Of a stretch of 64,000 nt of DNA, positions 31,474-64,000 are shown piece by piece. This stretch comes from Candidatus Legionella polyplacis. GTDB taxonomy: Bacteria; Pseudomonadota; Gammaproteobacteria; Legionellales; Legionellaceae. Location: the NCBI RefSeq assembly GCF_037013735.1, contig NZ_CP135136.1, forward strand, positions 124,001-188,000, given 5' to 3'. The notes under the pieces were generated by a model, which worked only from the letters and a program-made list of their open reading frames with translations, was not told the DNA's origin and did not search any database. The position numbers and the translations under genes were made by a program. The stretch's first letter is position 1, and each line of letters opens with the position of its first letter.

Positions 31474-32664
31474 TTACTCTATAATTTCAGAAACAACACC
31501 AGCACCAACAGTTCTACCACCCTCTCTTATAGCAAAACGTAAACCTTCATCCATGGCAATTGGAGATAAAAGATTTACAACCATTTGTACATTATCCCCA
31601 GGCATAACCATTTCCACTTTATCTGGTAAATTACAAGATCCTGTTACATCTGTAGTTCTAAAATAAAACTGTGGCTTATATCCAGAAAAAAAAGGAGTAT
31701 GACGACCTCCCTCTTCTTTAGTTAACACATAAACTTCTGCTTTAAATTTTGTATGAGGCTTTATAGTATTAGGCTTTGCCAATACTTGACCACGCTCAAC
31801 ATCTTCACGTTTTGTACCTCTAAGCAAAATACCAACATTATCCCCTGCCATTCCTTCATCAAGTAATTTTCTAAACATCTCAACACCAGTACATGTTGTT
31901 TTCTGAGTATCTTTTAAACCAACAATCTCAATATAATCACCAGGACGTATCACACCTCGTTCAATTCTACCAGTAACCACTGTTCCTCTACCTGATATAG
32001 AAAAAACATCTTCTATAGGTAATAGAAAATTTTTATCTATATCTCTAGATGGAGAAGGGATATAATTATCCATAACTTCTATTAATTTCTCAATTGACTT
32101 AACTCCGAGATCTCCATTATCTCCATTTAAAGCTTTTAATGATGAACCAACAATAATCGGTATTTCACTTCCAGGAAAATTATAACTACTTAATAAGTCT
32201 CTAACTTCCATTTCAACTAACTCTAATAATTCTAAATCATCAACCATATCTGCTTTATTTAAAAAAACTACAATATAAGGAACACCAACTTGACGAGCTA
32301 ATAATATATGCTCTCTGGTTTGCGGCATAGGACCATCTGCTGCAGAAACTACTAAAATAGCACCATCCATCTGTGCAGCTCCTGTAATCATATTTTTTAC
32401 ATAATCCGCATGTCCAGGACAATCCACATGAGCATAATGACGATTTTTTGACTCATATTCCACATGAGCAGTTGCTATGGTAATACCACGCTCTCTCTCT
32501 TCCGGAGCTGAATCAATTTTATCATAAGCCATTGCTACACCACCATATTTCTTAGCCATAATAGTAGTAATCGCTGAAGTTAACGTAGTTTTCCCATGAT
32601 CAACATGCCCAATAGTTCCTACATTAATATGTTCCTTTTTTCTCTCAAATTTTTCCTTAGCCAT
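31474..32664 (-). CDS. tuf: Elongation factor Tu
   Basis: GTPase that delivers aminoacyl-tRNA to the A site. G1 is GHVDHGKT (about residues 19-26), G3 [24 protein letters not shown]4 NKADMVDD (NKxD kept; Ala replaces the usual Cys). Domains 2 and 3 follow, ending [20 protein letters not shown]. Length 396. The second of two adjacent ATGs (32664) gives the standard MAKEKF start. It is the only tuf in the window: the copy common upstream of secE is missing. Confidence 0.99.
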
Positions 32665-55417: not shown

Positions 55418-56626
55418 TCATTCTGATTTCTCGTCTTTTTTTCTTAAAAAATTTGGAATATCTAAAGAATCTCTTTCATTGGAAATTAAATCTCCGTTCA
55501 ATTTTGTTACTTCACGTAAATTATTCTTTCTAAACTTAGACGATAAAGTATTATCTAACTTACAAAACTCAAAAACACTACTATTGTTCCGAGATAAACC
55601 AATAAAGTTTTTTCTTGAAAAATTAAATAACATATTATTATGTTGATATTTATCCATATAAAAATAATTATTAAGACCAGTGATAATAACCGTCACTATA
55701 ATCTCTTCCTTTACTGCTTCGTCAATAACAGAACCAATTATCATAGTTGCATCATCAAGAACAAATTCTCTTACTATATCACCAACCTCTTGAAACTCAC
55801 CAATAGATATACTTTCATTGGAAGTAATATTTACCAATATTCCACGAGCCCCTGAAAAATTTGTACCTTCAAGAAATGGAGAAGAAATAGCTGATTCTGC
55901 TGCTCTACAAGCCCTATCATCTCCAAAAGCACTTCCTGTGCCTATCATTGCTATACCATTTTTAGACATAACAGTACGAATATCAGCGAAATCAACATTA
56001 ATCAATCCAGGTTTAATAATTAAATCAGAAATACCTTTTACTGCTCTAAACAAAATATCATTAATAACTTTAAAGGCATTAATTAAAGTAATTTTTTTTC
56101 CAAGAACCGTAATTAATCTACTGTTTGGTATAACAATCAATGAATCAACATACTTACTTAATTGATAAATTCCATCTTCAGCAATTAACGATCTTTGCTT
56201 TCCTTCAAATAAAAACGGCTTAGTAACAACAGCAACAGTCAAAATTCCCAACTCCTTAGAAATTTGAGCAAATACAGGAGATGCACCAGTTCCAGTTCCT
56301 CCACCCATTCCAGCAGTAATAAATACCATATCTGAACCAAATAAAATTTCTTTAATTTTATCTTTACTTTCATTTGCTGATTCTCGACCAACATTAGGGT
56401 TTGATCCAGCACCAAATCCATTTGATAAAGTTTCTCCTAATTGAATTTGAATTTTTACATTAGAATTTTTTAAAGCTTGTTTATCTGTATTAGCATAAAT
56501 AAATTCAATATTATTTTTACTAAAATTTTTACTAATCATATAATTTATAGCATTTCCACCACCACCACCAACGCCTATAACTTTAATAATTATATTATCT
56601 TTTTTTGTTTCCATTAATTCAAACAA
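55418..56626 (-). CDS. ftsZ: Cell division protein FtsZ
   Basis: Tubulin-like GTPase that forms the division ring. KVIGVGGGGGNAINYMI opens the GTPase domain; the tubulin signature is GGGTGTGASP (near 109), followed by NVDFADIRTVMSKNGIAMIGTG. The C-terminal linker is short and ends SLDIPNFLRKK, the peptide that binds FtsA and ZipA. Length 402. Start is TTG at 56626: AAAGGAGG lies five bases upstream, whereas the in-frame ATG at 56614 is 17 bases away. ftsQ and ftsA do not lie upstream as they normally would. Confidence 0.97.
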   Translation of the reverse strand: MFELMETKKDNIIIKVIGVGGGGGNAINYMISKNFSKNNIEFIYANTDKQALKNSNVKIQIQLGETLSNGFGAGSNPNVGRESANESKDKIKEILFGSDMVFITAGMGGGTGTGASPVFAQISKELGILTVAVVTKPFLFEGKQRSLIAEDGIYQLSKYVDSLIVIPNSRLITVLGKKITLINAFKVINDILFRAVKGISDLIIKPGLINVDFADIRTVMSKNGIAMIGTGSAFGDDRACRAAESAISSPFLEGTNFSGARGILVNITSNESISIGEFQEVGDIVREFVLDDATMIIGSVIDEAVKEEIIVTVIITGLNNYFYMDKYQHNNMLFNFSRKNFIGLSRNNSSVFEFCKLDNTLSSKFRKNNLREVTKLNGDLISNERDSLDIPNFLRKKDEKSE

Positions 56627-56882
56627 TTTCCCCTCCTTTAAATTAAAAAATAATGATAATACCTTTTATAAATTAAATTTAAAAATATTTAACAAATACA
56701 AAATTTAATAATTATTTAAAAAAACAAAATATTTTATTACTAAATATTATTCCTTATTAATCATAACTTAATTTAAAACTAAAAAATACTAAAATATCTT
56801 TAAAAAAAAATAATATTTATACCTTATATAAAATCTTATGTTTACTAATAAAATTAAATACATTTAATAAATAAATAAAATT

Positions 56883-57971
56883 TTAACTTCTAATCAATCT
56901 ATCAGAATTATTTTTCTTAATAATTGCAAGTTCAATTAATTCATCAAGTAACTTTGTATAACATAAACCACTCATTTCCCACATTTTTGGATACATACTA
57001 ACTTTTGTAAATCCAGGTATAGTATTAATTTCATTAAAATAAATTTCTTCATTTTCATCTGTTACAAAAAAATCAATACGAGCCATTCCATTACATTTTA
57101 AACGAATAAAAATCTCTTTAGCAAAATATTGTACTTTTTTTATTAATTTATAATTCAAATTAGCAGGAATACACAATTCAATAAAATCAGTATCTAAATA
57201 CTTTGCAGAATAAGAATAGAAATTATCAGGATGATTAATATGAATTTCTCCAGGTACACTTACAATTGGATTAATAGAAAATCTGTTTTCTAAAACAGCA
57301 ATCTCTATTTCTCTCCCCAAAATACACTCCTCTATTATTACATTTTCATCATAATTAAATGCGCTATTAACAGCAAAAACCAATTGATCAAAACTTTCTA
57401 CTTTTGCAACACCTATACTAGATCCCAAAGAACATGGTTTAACAAATAAAGGAAAATTTAATTCACTAATTAACTTTTTATAGAATACAATTCGTTCTTT
57501 AAAACTTGTACGAAAAGAAATAACCCTATAACGAGCACATTTTATTGTATTATCACATACAATGCGTTTTGCTAAATCTTTATCCATACTAATCGATGAA
57601 GATTTAACATTATTACCAACATAAGCCACTTCAGACAACTCCAATAAACCTTGTAATGAACCATTTTCATAAAATGAACCATGTATAATAGGAAAAACCA
57701 CATCTGCATCAATAAATAAATTTCCATTTTTCATAAAACTAGATAAAATTTTTGATTTAAATGTCTTAACTGGAAGTTTATCTTTAAATTTTAACAACTC
57801 ATTATAATCATTGATAAAAAAACATCCTGTTTTATCTATGGCAATAGGTATAATTTCATACTTTTCTCTATTTAAATTTGACAGCACTGAAGCAGCAGAA
57901 GATAAAGAAACTTCATGTTCTACAGACTTTCCTCCATAAATTAAAATAATTTTCAAAATTAAAGAACTCAT
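56883..57971 (-). CDS. ddlB: D-alanine--D-alanine ligase
   Basis: Makes the D-Ala-D-Ala dipeptide for peptidoglycan. An ATP-grasp fold: GGKSVEHEVSLSSAASV (residues ~14-30), PLFVKPCSLGSSIGVAKV (about 170-187) and ARIDFFVTDENEEIYFNEINTIPGFT with the metal-binding acidic residues. At 362 residues it has the longer DdlA-like form, yet it sits in the dcw position of ddlB after murB. The murB stop lies one base upstream of its ATG. Confidence 0.96.
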   Translation of the reverse strand: MSSLILKIILIYGGKSVEHEVSLSSAASVLSNLNREKYEIIPIAIDKTGCFFINDYNELLKFKDKLPVKTFKSKILSSFMKNGNLFIDADVVFPIIHGSFYENGSLQGLLELSEVAYVGNNVKSSSISMDKDLAKRIVCDNTIKCARYRVISFRTSFKERIVFYKKLISELNFPLFVKPCSLGSSIGVAKVESFDQLVFAVNSAFNYDENVIIEECILGREIEIAVLENRFSINPIVSVPGEIHINHPDNFYSYSAKYLDTDFIELCIPANLNYKLIKKVQYFAKEIFIRLKCNGMARIDFFVTDENEEIYFNEINTIPGFTKVSMYPKMWEMSGLCYTKLLDELIELAIIKKNNSDRLIRS

Positions 57972-57972
57972 T

Positions 57973-58890
57973 TTATTTATTATCCAATATATGAACTTCA
58001 GTTTCTAACTTAATATTTTTTTTCTTCCATACAGTATATTTAATAATATTTATCAATTTTTTAACATCTTTAAATGAAGCATTGCCATTATAATTTACAA
58101 TAAAATTAGCATGTTTATTTGAAACCATTGCTCCACCAATTTTTTTTCCTTTTAAATTACATGATTCAATTAAATAACCAGCAGAAATATCATTACTAGG
58201 ATTTTTAAATATAGAACCACAATTATACTCTTTAATTGGTTGAACTTTCCTTTTATAAGATAAAAATCTTTTAATTTTATCAATTGATTTTTTTTTTTCT
58301 CCTTTTGAAAAACTAAAAATTGCAGAAACAAACCATTCATCTACATCTAATCCAGTAACACAACGATATGAAATTATAAAATCTGACGGATAACGAATAG
58401 AACGTACACCACAACGATTAAGAATTTCTACAGATACTACAAAAGACCATATATTCTGATTAAAACATCCAGCATTCATATTTAATGCTCCACCTATTGT
58501 ACCAGGTATACCAGATAAAAATTCTATACCAGAAAAATTCTGCTTTACACAAAACGAAACTAATTTCGTACAAGAAACTCCGGCTTCAACATATACACAT
58601 TTATCATCTAATAAAAAAATATTATTCAAACATTTTTTTGTAACAATAACCGTTCCTAAAAAACCATCATCATGAATAAGAATATTACTTCCAGATCCTA
58701 TCCACAATAACGGTTCATCTAAAGATAAATTTTTAAAAAAAACAATTAAATCATAAATATTAATTGGCTTATATAATCTGTTAGCCATACCACCTATTTT
58801 AAACGTAGTAAACCGAGATAAATTTATATTAATAAATAATTTTCCATAAAATGGAAAATTATTATTACAAGTATGAACCATACCAATCAA
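57973..58890 (-). CDS. murB: UDP-N-acetylenolpyruvoylglucosamine reductase
   Basis: FAD/NADPH enzyme that makes UDP-MurNAc. LLWIGSGSNILIHDDGFLGTVI (FAD-binding), FLSGIPGTIGGALNMNAGC and CGSIFKNP (catalytic Ser region) are present. The end IGGAMVSNKHANFIVN is of the shorter type-II MurB form. Length 305. The start is TTG at 58890, overlapping the murC stop (TTGA); the ATG at 58881 is an equally good choice. It lies in the murC-murB-ddl order of several gammaproteobacteria. Confidence 0.95.
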   Translation of the reverse strand: MIGMVHTCNNNFPFYGKLFININLSRFTTFKIGGMANRLYKPINIYDLIVFFKNLSLDEPLLWIGSGSNILIHDDGFLGTVIVTKKCLNNIFLLDDKCVYVEAGVSCTKLVSFCVKQNFSGIEFLSGIPGTIGGALNMNAGCFNQNIWSFVVSVEILNRCGVRSIRYPSDFIISYRCVTGLDVDEWFVSAIFSFSKGEKKKSIDKIKRFLSYKRKVQPIKEYNCGSIFKNPSNDISAGYLIESCNLKGKKIGGAMVSNKHANFIVNYNGNASFKDVKKLINIIKYTVWKKKNIKLETEVHILDNK

Positions 58891-60347
58891 TTATGTAAAT
58901 TTAATAAATTTAAAGCTAAATAATGAATATTTCCAGCACCTTGCATTAAAATAATATCTCCATCATTAACAGATAAATTTAAATATAAAAATATTTCATC
59001 ATTATTTATTAATGTAACTTTGTAATTTAAAAAACGTTGTCTTATATTATCTAACAAATCTTTACTATCTACACAATTAATAAAATTTTCATTTAAACTA
59101 AATACATTTAATAAAAACAATTCCTCTGATAAAGCTAAAACATTAACAAATTCTGAAAATAACAATTTTAACCTACTATAACGATGAGGTTGAAATACAT
59201 GAATTAATCTCTTATTAGGCCAAACAGAACGTATTGCGTTAATAGTAGATAAAATCTCATTAGGATGATGACCATAATCACTAATTATAAGTGCTTCTCC
59301 ATTTTTAAATTGGCACTTACCAAGAATATGAAAACGTCTATTTACTCCTTTAAATTTTAATAATCCATTAATAATATACTTATCATTAATTCCAATCTCT
59401 GTAGAAACAGCAATAGACGCCAAAACATTCAAAACATTATGCCTACCTGGTAAAATAATTTTTACTCTTAAAGAACAAAAAGGTTTTGGTCTATGCACTG
59501 TAAAATGACTAAACAATCCTATTTGAACCCAATTACACGCTCTATAATCGGCATCTTTAGAAAATCCATAAGTTCTTATATATCCATTTATTTTTAATAA
59601 TTTCCTCTTAATTTCTTTATTATCTATACAAATAATAGATAAACCATAACTTGGAACAACATTATTAATAAAATTTATAAAAGTATTACTTAAATTATTA
59701 AAATTATTAAAATAATTATCTAAATGCTCTTTCTCAATATTTGTAACAACAGCTATATCTGGTTTTAAAAATAAAAAAGATGCATCACTTTCATCCGCTT
59801 CTGCAATAAAATATCTAGATTTACCTAATTTTGCATTAACGTTCAAAACATTTAATATACCACCAATTACAAAACTAATATCTATATTACATTCAGTAAA
59901 TATACTAATAATCAAACCAGAAGTGGTAGTTTTTCCATGAGAACCAGATACAATAATATTGTAATGATAATATAATAATTTCGCAAGCATTAATCCTCTA
60001 GATATAATAGGAATTCCATATTTTATTGCAAATTTAATTTCAATATTTTCCATAGAAATAGCGGATGATTTAACAACTAAGTCGCTTTTCAATACATTAA
60101 TTGCTTTATGACCTATACTAATTTTAATTCCTAATAATCTTAAAGAATTTATAATATGATTATCTTCGAGATCAGATCCAGTAATATTATATCCTTTTTC
60201 ACAAAGAATCTTAGCAATTCCAGACATACCAATTCCACCGATACCAATAAAATGAATATTTTTATATTTAAAAAAATTTATATTATCTAAATACTCTTCT
60301 GCTTTATAATATAGTAATTCTTGATTACACATTAAATTATCAACCAT
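58887..60347 (-). CDS. murC: UDP-N-acetylmuramate--L-alanine ligase
   Basis: First amino-acid ligase of the muropeptide. NIHFIGIGGIGMSGIAKIL (near residue 30) binds the UDP substrate; the ATP site is VSGSHGKTTTSGLI (near 130), and AEADESDASFL and NIEKEHLDNY are family motifs. SDYGHHPNEI is near 360. Length 486. The first ~28 residues precede the conserved start and are extra. It follows murD after 184 bases in which ftsW and murG would normally lie. Confidence 0.97.
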   Translation of the reverse strand: MVDNLMCNQELLYYKAEEYLDNINFFKYKNIHFIGIGGIGMSGIAKILCEKGYNITGSDLEDNHIINSLRLLGIKISIGHKAINVLKSDLVVKSSAISMENIEIKFAIKYGIPIISRGLMLAKLLYYHYNIIVSGSHGKTTTSGLIISIFTECNIDISFVIGGILNVLNVNAKLGKSRYFIAEADESDASFLFLKPDIAVVTNIEKEHLDNYFNNFNNLSNTFINFINNVVPSYGLSIICIDNKEIKRKLLKINGYIRTYGFSKDADYRACNWVQIGLFSHFTVHRPKPFCSLRVKIILPGRHNVLNVLASIAVSTEIGINDKYIINGLLKFKGVNRRFHILGKCQFKNGEALIISDYGHHPNEILSTINAIRSVWPNKRLIHVFQPHRYSRLKLLFSEFVNVLALSEELFLLNVFSLNENFINCVDSKDLLDNIRQRFLNYKVTLINNDEIFLYLNLSVNDGDIILMQGAGNIHYLALNLLNLHN

Positions 60348-60531
60348 TCTTATACAAAAAATTAAAACATTAATAACAAATTCAAATTAATATTCTTAAT
60401 CAAAAGAATAAATCTTTATTTATAAATACTATTTATTTTACAAATAAAAACTTTTCTATAAAAAATAAAATTTTCAAAAAAAATATAACTAATATTACTG
60501 CAGAATTTTATCTTTGCAAACAATAAAATTA

Positions 60532-61872
60532 TTAAATTTTAACCAATAATTTATTAAAAACTTCTCCCCTATGATTAAAATCACGAAACATATCCAAACT
60601 AGAACATGCTGGAGAAAAAAGAATTGCATCTCCAAATTTTGCTTTAGACTTAGCAACAATCATTGCTTTTTTTAAAGAAAAAACTAAACATACTGGTACA
60701 ATACCTAAAAATACTGATTTTATTTTATTTGCATCTTTTCCTATAATAATAATTACTCGAACATACTTTTTTATGTATTCACTTAAAATAGAAAAATCAG
60801 CATTCTTACTATCTCCACCAATAATTAATATAATTTTCCCCACTATTAATTCATTCACACTCAAAACTGCAGAAATAGTTGCACCTACATTTGTAGATTT
60901 AGAATCATTAATCCATTTAATCCCATTTGAAGAACCAATCCACTGACATCTATAAGGTAATCCAATATATGATTTTAATACACTAATTATACTATTTTTA
61001 TCTATACCTATATGAGTTGCTAATGCACAAGAAGCTAAAGCATTTTGCCAATTTTGCTTACCTTTAATTTTAATATCTTCAATATTTAATAATATTTCAC
61101 TACCATGAGATATATAACTAATATTATCAATAATTGAAATACCCCATTCTCTAGAAGAATTTGGTTTTTTCAAAGAAAAATTATATTTTTTATCAAAAGG
61201 AAAAATTTTTTTTGGAAAAGTATTATAATCATCTCTATTATATAAAACATAATCAGCATTTTCATAAATACTCTGTTTAACCTCTATATAAGAAAATAAA
61301 TCTAGATGTCTATCTAAATGATCCGAAGAAATATTTAAAATTGTAGCAATAAAAGGTTTTAAAGATCTCAGTAAACTTAATTGAAAACTAGATAATTCAA
61401 GAATCCATATATCATATACATCATTATTCAATAATGCATCAAAAACAGGAAAACCAATATTACCAGCTACAATAACAGATAACCCATAAAACTTAACCAT
61501 CTCTCCTAATAAAGTTGCTACTGTGGATTTTCCATTAGTACCAGTAATAGCTATAACTTTAGAAGAAAATTTTGTTTCTCTTATTAAATACTCTATATCG
61601 CCAAAAATTGGAATATTTAAATCAACAGCTTTTCTAATAAAATCTTCATTTAAACAAATTCCAGGACTCAAGATAACCGCTTTAATTTTCTTGTAAACAA
61701 ATACTGGTATACTTCCAATATATATATCAATATTTGGAAAATTTTTAATAAAAACCGATAATCTTTTAATATCTCTATAGGTATTAAAAACAATAAAACT
61801 TTTATTTTTATTCCATAAATATCTAGAAACAGATAATCCTGTTTTTCCTAATCCAGCAACTAAATAAAACAT
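60532..61872 (-). CDS. murD: UDP-N-acetylmuramoyl-L-alanine--D-glutamate ligase
   Basis: Adds D-glutamate to the growing muropeptide. VAGLGKTGLSVSRYL opens it, AITGTNGKSTVATLLGEM (near 110) is the ATP site, and NISSDHLDRH and WINDSKSTNVGATISAV are Mur-ligase signatures. FSPACSSLDMFRDFNHRGEVF closes it. Length 446. It follows mraY after 36 bases. Confidence 0.97.
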   Translation of the reverse strand: MFYLVAGLGKTGLSVSRYLWNKNKSFIVFNTYRDIKRLSVFIKNFPNIDIYIGSIPVFVYKKIKAVILSPGICLNEDFIRKAVDLNIPIFGDIEYLIRETKFSSKVIAITGTNGKSTVATLLGEMVKFYGLSVIVAGNIGFPVFDALLNNDVYDIWILELSSFQLSLLRSLKPFIATILNISSDHLDRHLDLFSYIEVKQSIYENADYVLYNRDDYNTFPKKIFPFDKKYNFSLKKPNSSREWGISIIDNISYISHGSEILLNIEDIKIKGKQNWQNALASCALATHIGIDKNSIISVLKSYIGLPYRCQWIGSSNGIKWINDSKSTNVGATISAVLSVNELIVGKIILIIGGDSKNADFSILSEYIKKYVRVIIIIGKDANKIKSVFLGIVPVCLVFSLKKAMIVAKSKAKFGDAILFSPACSSLDMFRDFNHRGEVFNKLLVKI

Positions 61873-61908: not shown

Positions 61909-63009
61909 TTATATTAAAGAAATAATTAATACAAACAAACCAATGAACGTAAATAGCATATTTATAATCCAAAATCTAACAATAATTTTAGATTCATGTA
62001 AACCTTTTAGTTCAAAATGATGATGCAATGGAGTCATATTAAACAATCTACGACCCTTAGTATATTTAAAATATAACACTTGAAATATTACTGACATCGT
62101 TTCTAAAATAAATATACCTCCTGTAATCATTAAAAAAAACTCCTGTCTTCCAATTACAGAAATAATACCTAATGCAGATCCTATAGCTAAAGATCCAGTA
62201 TCTCCCATAAAAATTTGAGCAGGATAACAATTATACCAAAGAAAACCTAATACAGATCCAATAATAGAAAAACAAAAAACTATTAATTCTTTTATATTAA
62301 AAAAAACTGGAATATTACAATAATAAATATTACCTATTCCAGAAAACATATAAATAAGTAAACATAAAAATCCAATATTCGTAATAATAGGAAATATAAC
62401 TAATCCATCTAAACCATCAGTTAAATTTACTGCATTACTACTTCCCATAACCACAATATAATCTAATAAAAGAAAGATAGGCCCAACATCGATACATATA
62501 CCATTAAACAATGGTATAATCAATTGCGTTTGTATATTATTACAAGAATTAAAATAAAGACATATTAAAGCACCAATTACAATTAACGATTCAAAAAAAT
62601 ATTTACAAGAAACTGATAATCCACCATTTTTATTTTTACATGCAAGTTTCAAATAATCATCTACAGCGCCTACTATCCCAAAACATATAATAACAAATAT
62701 TGCTATCCATAAATTAAATTGACATAAATCTCCCCAAATCAAACAACTAAAGCAAATAGAAAATATAATTAAAATACCACCCATAGTAGGAGTATCTTTC
62801 TTTAATAAATTATTACTATGTTTAGAACATCTAAGAATCTGTCTAATATTAAACTGCTTTAAATATTTAATTATCAAATTACCAAAAAATAAACAAATTA
62901 AAAAAGCAGTTATACCGGATAATATTGAACGTAATATTAAAAACTTAGATAAATATAAAATGTAATGATACTTTTTTTTTATCAAAAAACATATTAACCA
63001 ATAAAACAT
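61909..63009 (-). CDS. mraY: Phospho-MurNAc-pentapeptide transferase MraY
   Basis: Ten-helix inner-membrane enzyme that moves phospho-MurNAc-pentapeptide onto undecaprenyl phosphate to make lipid I. KKDTPTMGGILI (about 70-81), VDDYLKL (catalytic Asp region), NAVNLTDGLDGLVI, FMGDTGSLAIG and the HHHFE motif near the C terminus are present. Length 366. It lies between murF and murD. Confidence 0.97.
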   Translation of the reverse strand: MFYWLICFLIKKKYHYILYLSKFLILRSILSGITAFLICLFFGNLIIKYLKQFNIRQILRCSKHSNNLLKKDTPTMGGILIIFSICFSCLIWGDLCQFNLWIAIFVIICFGIVGAVDDYLKLACKNKNGGLSVSCKYFFESLIVIGALICLYFNSCNNIQTQLIIPLFNGICIDVGPIFLLLDYIVVMGSSNAVNLTDGLDGLVIFPIITNIGFLCLLIYMFSGIGNIYYCNIPVFFNIKELIVFCFSIIGSVLGFLWYNCYPAQIFMGDTGSLAIGSALGIISVIGRQEFFLMITGGIFILETMSVIFQVLYFKYTKGRRLFNMTPLHHHFELKGLHESKIIVRFWIINMLFTFIGLFVLIISLI

Positions 63010-63070: not shown

Positions 63071-64000
63071 TTATTCGATCAATAATGCTCTCACAATATC
63101 TTCCATAAAAAAAATTCTAGAACCCTTAACCAAAATAACAGTATCTTTATCAAGATAATAAAATAAATCATAAATTAATTTTTCTTTACACATATAGTGT
63201 TTTTCAATATTCATATTATAAAAAATAATATTAGAATTTATAGAATTCAGACCTAAAGTAAATAATAAATCAATATTATAATACCTAGCCATATATCCTA
63301 TTACCTTATGATGATTTTTTGAAAAACATCCAAGATCATATAAATCACCTAACACTAAAATCTTTTTTCTTCTTTTTACCTTATAAAGCATATTTATTGC
63401 TACTAAAACAGAATATAAATTAGCGTTATAAGTATCATCAATAATTAAAGAATTCTTTTTCCCTCTTAAGAATGTCATTCTACCAGAAACACCTCTAAAT
63501 GTTTCTAAACCATTAACTATTTCAAATAAAGAAATTCCTAAAGCATAACAACAAGCTGCGGCAGCTATAGCATTAATTACAGAATACCTACCAGGAACCT
63601 TTAATTTCACATTACTACAGCCAATAGGTAAAACCAAAGTAAATTTGGCATAACCATAATTATCCATTATAATATTTCTAGCATAAACATCAGAACATCT
63701 AATATGAGAAAAATATATTATTCTTTTATTCAATAAAAATTCTCTCCAAACAAAGTTATAATATTCCTCTCTATTTAAAATAGCCACACCATCAATTAAA
63801 TTTAATGATTTATAAATTTCTCCTTTGGTTTTTGCTACATTATATATATTGCCAAATCCTTTAAGATGAGCAGGAGCAATGTTAGTAACTAAAGAAACAT
63901 CTGGTTTTATTATTTTAGATAAATAATTAATCTCTCCCAAATTAGAAGCTCCTAATTCAAAAACTGCATAAGAATGATAGAACTTTAAATTTAATACACT
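63071..64000 (-). CDS. murF: UDP-MurNAc-tripeptide--D-Ala-D-Ala ligase, C-terminal part (5' end outside window)
   Basis: Adds the D-Ala-D-Ala dipeptide to the UDP-MurNAc tripeptide. The frame is open to the right edge (base 64000), so about 310 C-terminal residues are here; MurF is usually ~450. FELGASNLGEINYLS near 63900-63960, NIAPAHLKGFG, IIDDTYNANLYSVLVAI and VLGDLYDLG are MurF hallmarks, and the last SRIFFMEDIV element ends it. The ATP P-loop is outside. It supplies the pentapeptide for mraY, which follows after 61 bases. Confidence 0.96.
   Translation of the reverse strand, partial: SVLNLKFYHSYAVFELGASNLGEINYLSKIIKPDVSLVTNIAPAHLKGFGNIYNVAKTKGEIYKSLNLIDGVAILNREEYYNFVWREFLLNKRIIYFSHIRCSDVYARNIIMDNYGYAKFTLVLPIGCSNVKLKVPGRYSVINAIAAAACCYALGISLFEIVNGLETFRGVSGRMTFLRGKKNSLIIDDTYNANLYSVLVAINMLYKVKRRKKILVLGDLYDLGCFSKNHHKVIGYMARYYNIDLLFTLGLNSINSNIIFYNMNIEKHYMCKEKLIYDLFYYLDKDTVILVKGSRIFFMEDIVRALLIE

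Follow-up and report, generated by a model that had tools for sequence, protein, structure and literature searches.

The window analyzed here, a 64,000-nucleotide stretch of DNA, covers positions 124001 to 188000 of a single contig of 530,980 bases, the reduced genome of a Legionellaceae endosymbiont that is close to Candidatus Legionella polyplacis. Toward its end, the window holds what is left of a dcw cluster (Table 1), the genes of which were named with NCBIfam models at their curated cut-offs. For murF, which runs past the window, the whole ORF (L138) shares 49% identity with murF of one relative. Elsewhere in the window, the G+C content climbs from ∼20 to 26% to ∼30 to 32% between positions 32000 and 44000. 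For comparison, we searched a sister genome (G001) of 529,746 bases, whose ∼86 to 91% protein identity for most genes compared places it in the same genus as a species of its own. We take this genome to be that of the louse symbiont Candidatus Legionella polyplacis PsAG, reported with a size of 529,746 bases (PMC12175528).

Table 1. Genes and gaps of the dcw remnant, in window coordinates
Feature	Position	Strand	Evidence
ftsZ	55418..56626	-	TIGR00065 401.5 bits, over cut-off; dN/dS 0.12
ddl-ftsZ gap, site of lost ftsQ and ftsA	56627..56882	.	ftsQ and ftsA occupy this place in a family relative
ddl	56883..57971	-	NF002528 391.8 bits, over cut-off; dN/dS 0.21
murB	57973..58890	-	NF010480 314.2 bits, over cut-off
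murC	58887..60347	-	TIGR01082 459.5 bits, over cut-off; dN/dS 0.29 versus sister genome
murD-murC intergenic gap	60348..60531	.	site of lost ftsW; murG never there in Legionellaceae
murD	60532..61872	-	TIGR01087 368 bits, over cut-off; dN/dS 0.21
mraY (makes lipid I)	61909..63009	-	TIGR00445 326.5 bits, over cut-off; dN/dS 0.22
murF, part (runs past window; 451 aa whole)	63071..64000	-	TIGR01143 232.6 bits for in-window part, below 288.6 cut-off

Between the end of MurD (60532) and the start of the MurC open frame (60347), both on the minus strand, exactly 184 bases remain, with a G+C content of 12.5%. A preliminary description of this DNA had noted the absence of both ftsW and murG from this place, and this observation holds. 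With ftsW and murG measuring ∼1.18 kb and ∼1.08 kb in relatives, neither gene would fit into the gap or into its mostly alignable homolog of 214 bases in the sister genome, and tblastn searches with FtsW proteins of the family found no similarity beyond chance (best E value of 1.1 here and 0.15 in the sister-genome gap). Promoter- and terminator-like sites are no more common in the gap than in shuffles, no plasmid similarity to the gap was found, and no RNA genes lie near it, the window holding tRNAs only. As an aside, the called start of MurC (window 60333 to 60347) appears to lie a few codons early; judging from the sister genome, the conserved start is probably an in-frame ATG downstream, which would make the noncoding gap slightly longer than 184 bases.

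A whole-genome search located a single intact murG at G000:C1:459387-460463 (L084:9388-10464), as the preliminary description had envisaged in one of its alternatives. The gene comprises 358 codons without an internal stop and lies between purB and mreB, with mreB, mreC, and mreD coming after it. Its product scores over the cut-offs for PF03033 and PF04101, the N- and C-terminal GT28 domains (the latter with an E value of 8.9e-32), and keeps the GGxxGH loop (TGGGSAGH, residues 7 to 14). This loop is included in the alignment to its best PDB matches, which are the MurG structures 3s2u, 7d1i, and 1f0k. With 350.2 bits, the protein exceeds the cut-off of 339 for the NF009102 equivalog, while its 215.2 bits against the general murG model TIGR01133 stay below that model's cut-off of 250.25; judged by sequence, it is the former and not the latter that identifies it as MurG. 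A subfamily relative from outside the symbionts (G036) also falls under the TIGR01133 cut-off, with 240.1 bits, indicating that erosion alone does not account for a low score here, which is a mark of the subfamily. Between the symbiont and the sister genome, murG has a dN/dS of 0.22. The predicted activity of the enzyme would be the conversion of lipid I to lipid II by GlcNAc transfer. A MurG encoded in the symbiont genome leaves no need for a donor of lipid II synthesis, and the host enzyme that the preliminary description had invoked for this step is unnecessary; this argument bears on lipid II and not on the FtsW/FtsI step. We regard it as most improbable that MurG or septal synthesis is supplied by an enzyme of the host or a co-symbiont, even though hosts are known to take part in the wall metabolism of the insect symbionts Buchnera and Moranella (review PMC7154730).

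That murG was expected in the gap at all goes back to the widely conserved gene order outside the family, which puts murG between ftsW and murC; indeed, murG lies directly beside murC in many of the other-family genomes searched. By that standard, ftsW and murG would have been lost jointly from an ordinary dcw cluster, with murG later moved or re-acquired in the symbiont lineage. The expectation fails in the Legionellaceae, however. In 28 family relatives the murC flank could be read, and all of them carry an ftsW-type SEDS gene directly upstream of murC and next to murD, without murG (the murD end was unmatched in L024, L029, and L031). Beyond the symbiont genus, all 31 family genomes searched have one copy of murG elsewhere (in draft G029, as two fragments on separate contigs). 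In most relatives with murG flanks read, the gene lies near purB, mreBCD, or both. The symbiont has this same murG neighborhood and a MurG of the family's own clade. Family synteny thus refutes a joint loss followed by a move of murG, a scenario to which we attach practically no credence. Because ftsW alone stands between murD and murC in Legionellaceae and murG lies elsewhere, we read the gap as the record of the loss of ftsW alone, with the symbiont having inherited its murG position. This corrects the original gene-order inference, in that none of the sampled Legionellaceae has murG in the dcw cluster. Our literature search found no relevant report of a Legionella murG outside the dcw cluster.

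The murG of this family is also of a distinct type. The symbiont protein is ∼41 to 53% identical to MurG within the Legionellaceae and mostly only ∼24 to 30% identical to the murC-linked (dcw-type) MurG of other gammaproteobacterial families. Only 16 of 274 sampled gammaproteobacterial genomes gave a MurG match over the NF009102 cut-off, one in each genome, and the closest named MurGs outside the Legionellaceae come from Bacillota (Paenibacillus, Bacillus relatives, Clostridium, and Lachnospiraceae) along with some uncultured Gammaproteobacteria. A fully supported long branch in the MurG tree divides the NF009102-type clade from dcw-type MurG. The symbiont MurG nests among those of Legionella, and the two symbionts are placed, weakly, beside Legionella fairfieldensis in this tree, which has many open forks. 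Legionellaceae MurG belongs with the MurGs of the four Bacillota groups in the NF009102/PRK12446 subfamily; unlike in the others, it is the sole MurG found and lies outside the dcw cluster. The presence of a subfamily otherwise typical of Bacillota suggests that the standard MurG of the Legionellaceae was replaced long ago by the NF009102/PRK12446 type, through a transfer that may have run in either direction.

The loss of ftsW is accompanied by that of other division genes. An illustrative family relative (G022) shows the order lpxC-ftsZ-ftsA-ftsQ-ddl-murB-murC-ftsW-murD-mraY-murF and, at a second locus, mraZ-rsmH-ftsL-ftsI-murE, with lpxC and rsmH named by sequence and place and not by a model. 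The corresponding symbiont orders are ftsZ-ddl-murB-murC-murD-mraY-murF and, separately, rsmH-murE. That is, mraZ, ftsL, and ftsI are gone beside rsmH and murE, with ∼100 bases between the kept genes (L231:8443-9500; G000:C1 ∼80.4 to 81.5 kb). FtsA is absent in a genome-wide search, in which the only FtsA-family match is MreB. Judged at their family places only, ftsQ, ftsL, and zipA are missing. Where checked, the sister genome has the same pattern with respect to the gap, the place of murG, the loss of ftsW, ftsA, and class A PBPs, and the loss of ftsL and ftsI from their sites. Losses common to both congeners should be older than their split. The genome that we take as PsAG (PMC12175528) is thus alike in gap, murG place, and losses, differing as a separate species.

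Genome-wide, we found one SEDS protein, RodA (∼519565 to 520683), whose gene adjoins mrdA (PBP2), and no ftsW. The protein reaches 340.0 bits against TIGR02210 (cut-off, 336.7) compared to 246.4 bits against the ftsW model TIGR02614 (cut-off, 337.5), keeps the PExxTDF motif, and groups with family RodA, not FtsW, in the SEDS tree. Similarly, there is one transpeptidase-domain protein in the genome, MrdA, with the three active-site motifs S-T-I-K, S-C-D, and K-T-G-T. Neither genus member has a transglycosylase-domain (class A PBP) gene, compared to two such genes over the cut-off in each of two relatives. Genes for mreBCD, dacA, and an RlpA-type protein are present. A whole-genome search for murG, ftsW, mrdB, and penicillin-binding proteins, as proposed in the preliminary description, has thus recovered murG, rodA, and MrdA, and neither ftsW nor class A PBPs. 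That description had also named murG together with ftsW or rodA elsewhere in the genome as evidence against itself, and both murG and rodA are there. Among the SEDS, transglycosylase-domain, and transpeptidase-domain proteins searched for, RodA-PBP2 is the only visible pair of polymerase and DD-transpeptidase, and as such would have to supply the entire peptidoglycan, any septal portion included.

A further alternative raised at the outset was that the wall pathway is decaying, in which case the mur genes would be relics and peptidoglycan would not be made. Such decay would fit a genome of only 531 kb that has lost divisome genes, mraZ, and class A PBPs, and pathway loss is known in other reduced symbionts. 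Yet the two congeners have kept intact each lipid II step that was searched for: murA, murB, murC, murD, murE, murF, murG, ddl, and mraY are all open, as are murJ, rodA, and mrdA, and catalytic motifs are kept. Moreover, dN/dS between the congeners ranges from 0.02 to 0.29 across the nine tested genes of wall synthesis, cell shape, and division, a sign of purifying selection that also speaks against decay. We consider this alternative very unlikely.

The explanation that we hold to be very probable is that murG, ancestrally outside the dcw cluster, stayed intact; divisome genes and class A PBPs were deleted; and lipid II synthesis, FtsZ, and the elongasome were retained, leaving RodA-PBP2 as the sole synthase. 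From the observed presence, absence, order, and selection of these genes, we infer what the enzymes do, including the double duty of RodA-PBP2, as follows. In the common ancestor of the Legionellaceae, murG would already have been outside the dcw cluster, as a distinct subfamily near mreBCD. In the symbiont genus, ftsW, ftsQ, ftsA, ftsL, ftsI, and class A PBPs would have been deleted. MurG would still turn lipid I into lipid II, MurJ would flip the product, and RodA-PBP2, guided by MreBCD, would serve as sole polymerase and cross-linker for the side wall and any septal wall, while FtsZ would still mark the division site. Viewed like this, most of the finding comes down to a gene arrangement shared across the family, combined with the gene loss that is usual in symbionts.

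The C-terminal peptide of FtsZ docks FtsA and ZipA. In both congeners, FtsZ keeps this peptide (LDIPNFLRKK; window 55418 to 55500) along with the GTPase motif GGGTGTG, and conservation of the docking peptide in the absence of FtsA makes a remaining FtsZ partner likely. More tentatively, FtsZ might recruit the elongasome (RodA-PBP2) for the septum, either directly or via an unknown adaptor, without FtsA, FtsQ, FtsL, FtsI, and FtsW; we see this as possible rather than probable.

Wall synthesis in a reduced form is known from bacteria that lack class A PBPs (PMC8406291). Judged by genes alone, the symbiont has the set that defines such peptidoglycan-intermediate bacteria, since lipid II genes, a SEDS protein, and a class B PBP are kept and class A PBPs are lost; it differs in having a single SEDS protein and a single class B PBP, and Legionella is unnamed in that work. 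In the louse-symbiont literature examined, we found no discussion of L. polyplacis peptidoglycan.

A second known system is Wolbachia, in which supergroups B, C, and D, as well as J, are mostly without FtsI and FtsW and have kept RodA and PBP2; most Wolbachia of supergroups B, C, and D lack FtsL and FtsB too, with FtsZ kept, and RodA-PBP2 has been suggested to carry out septal synthesis there (review PMC10591338). The symbiont likewise has lost FtsL, FtsI, and FtsW and kept FtsZ, RodA, and PBP2. In contrast, ftsA and ftsQ are kept in those Wolbachia and both gone in the symbiont, which moreover is a gammaproteobacterium. A dual role of RodA-PBP2 in the symbiont would be the same reading as that proposed for these Wolbachia supergroups. 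With most septal synthase genes selectively lost and FtsZ, the elongasome, and all of the lipid II pathway still present, the symbiont offers a clean natural case that makes the role of RodA-PBP2 in division testable in a second lineage beside Wolbachia.
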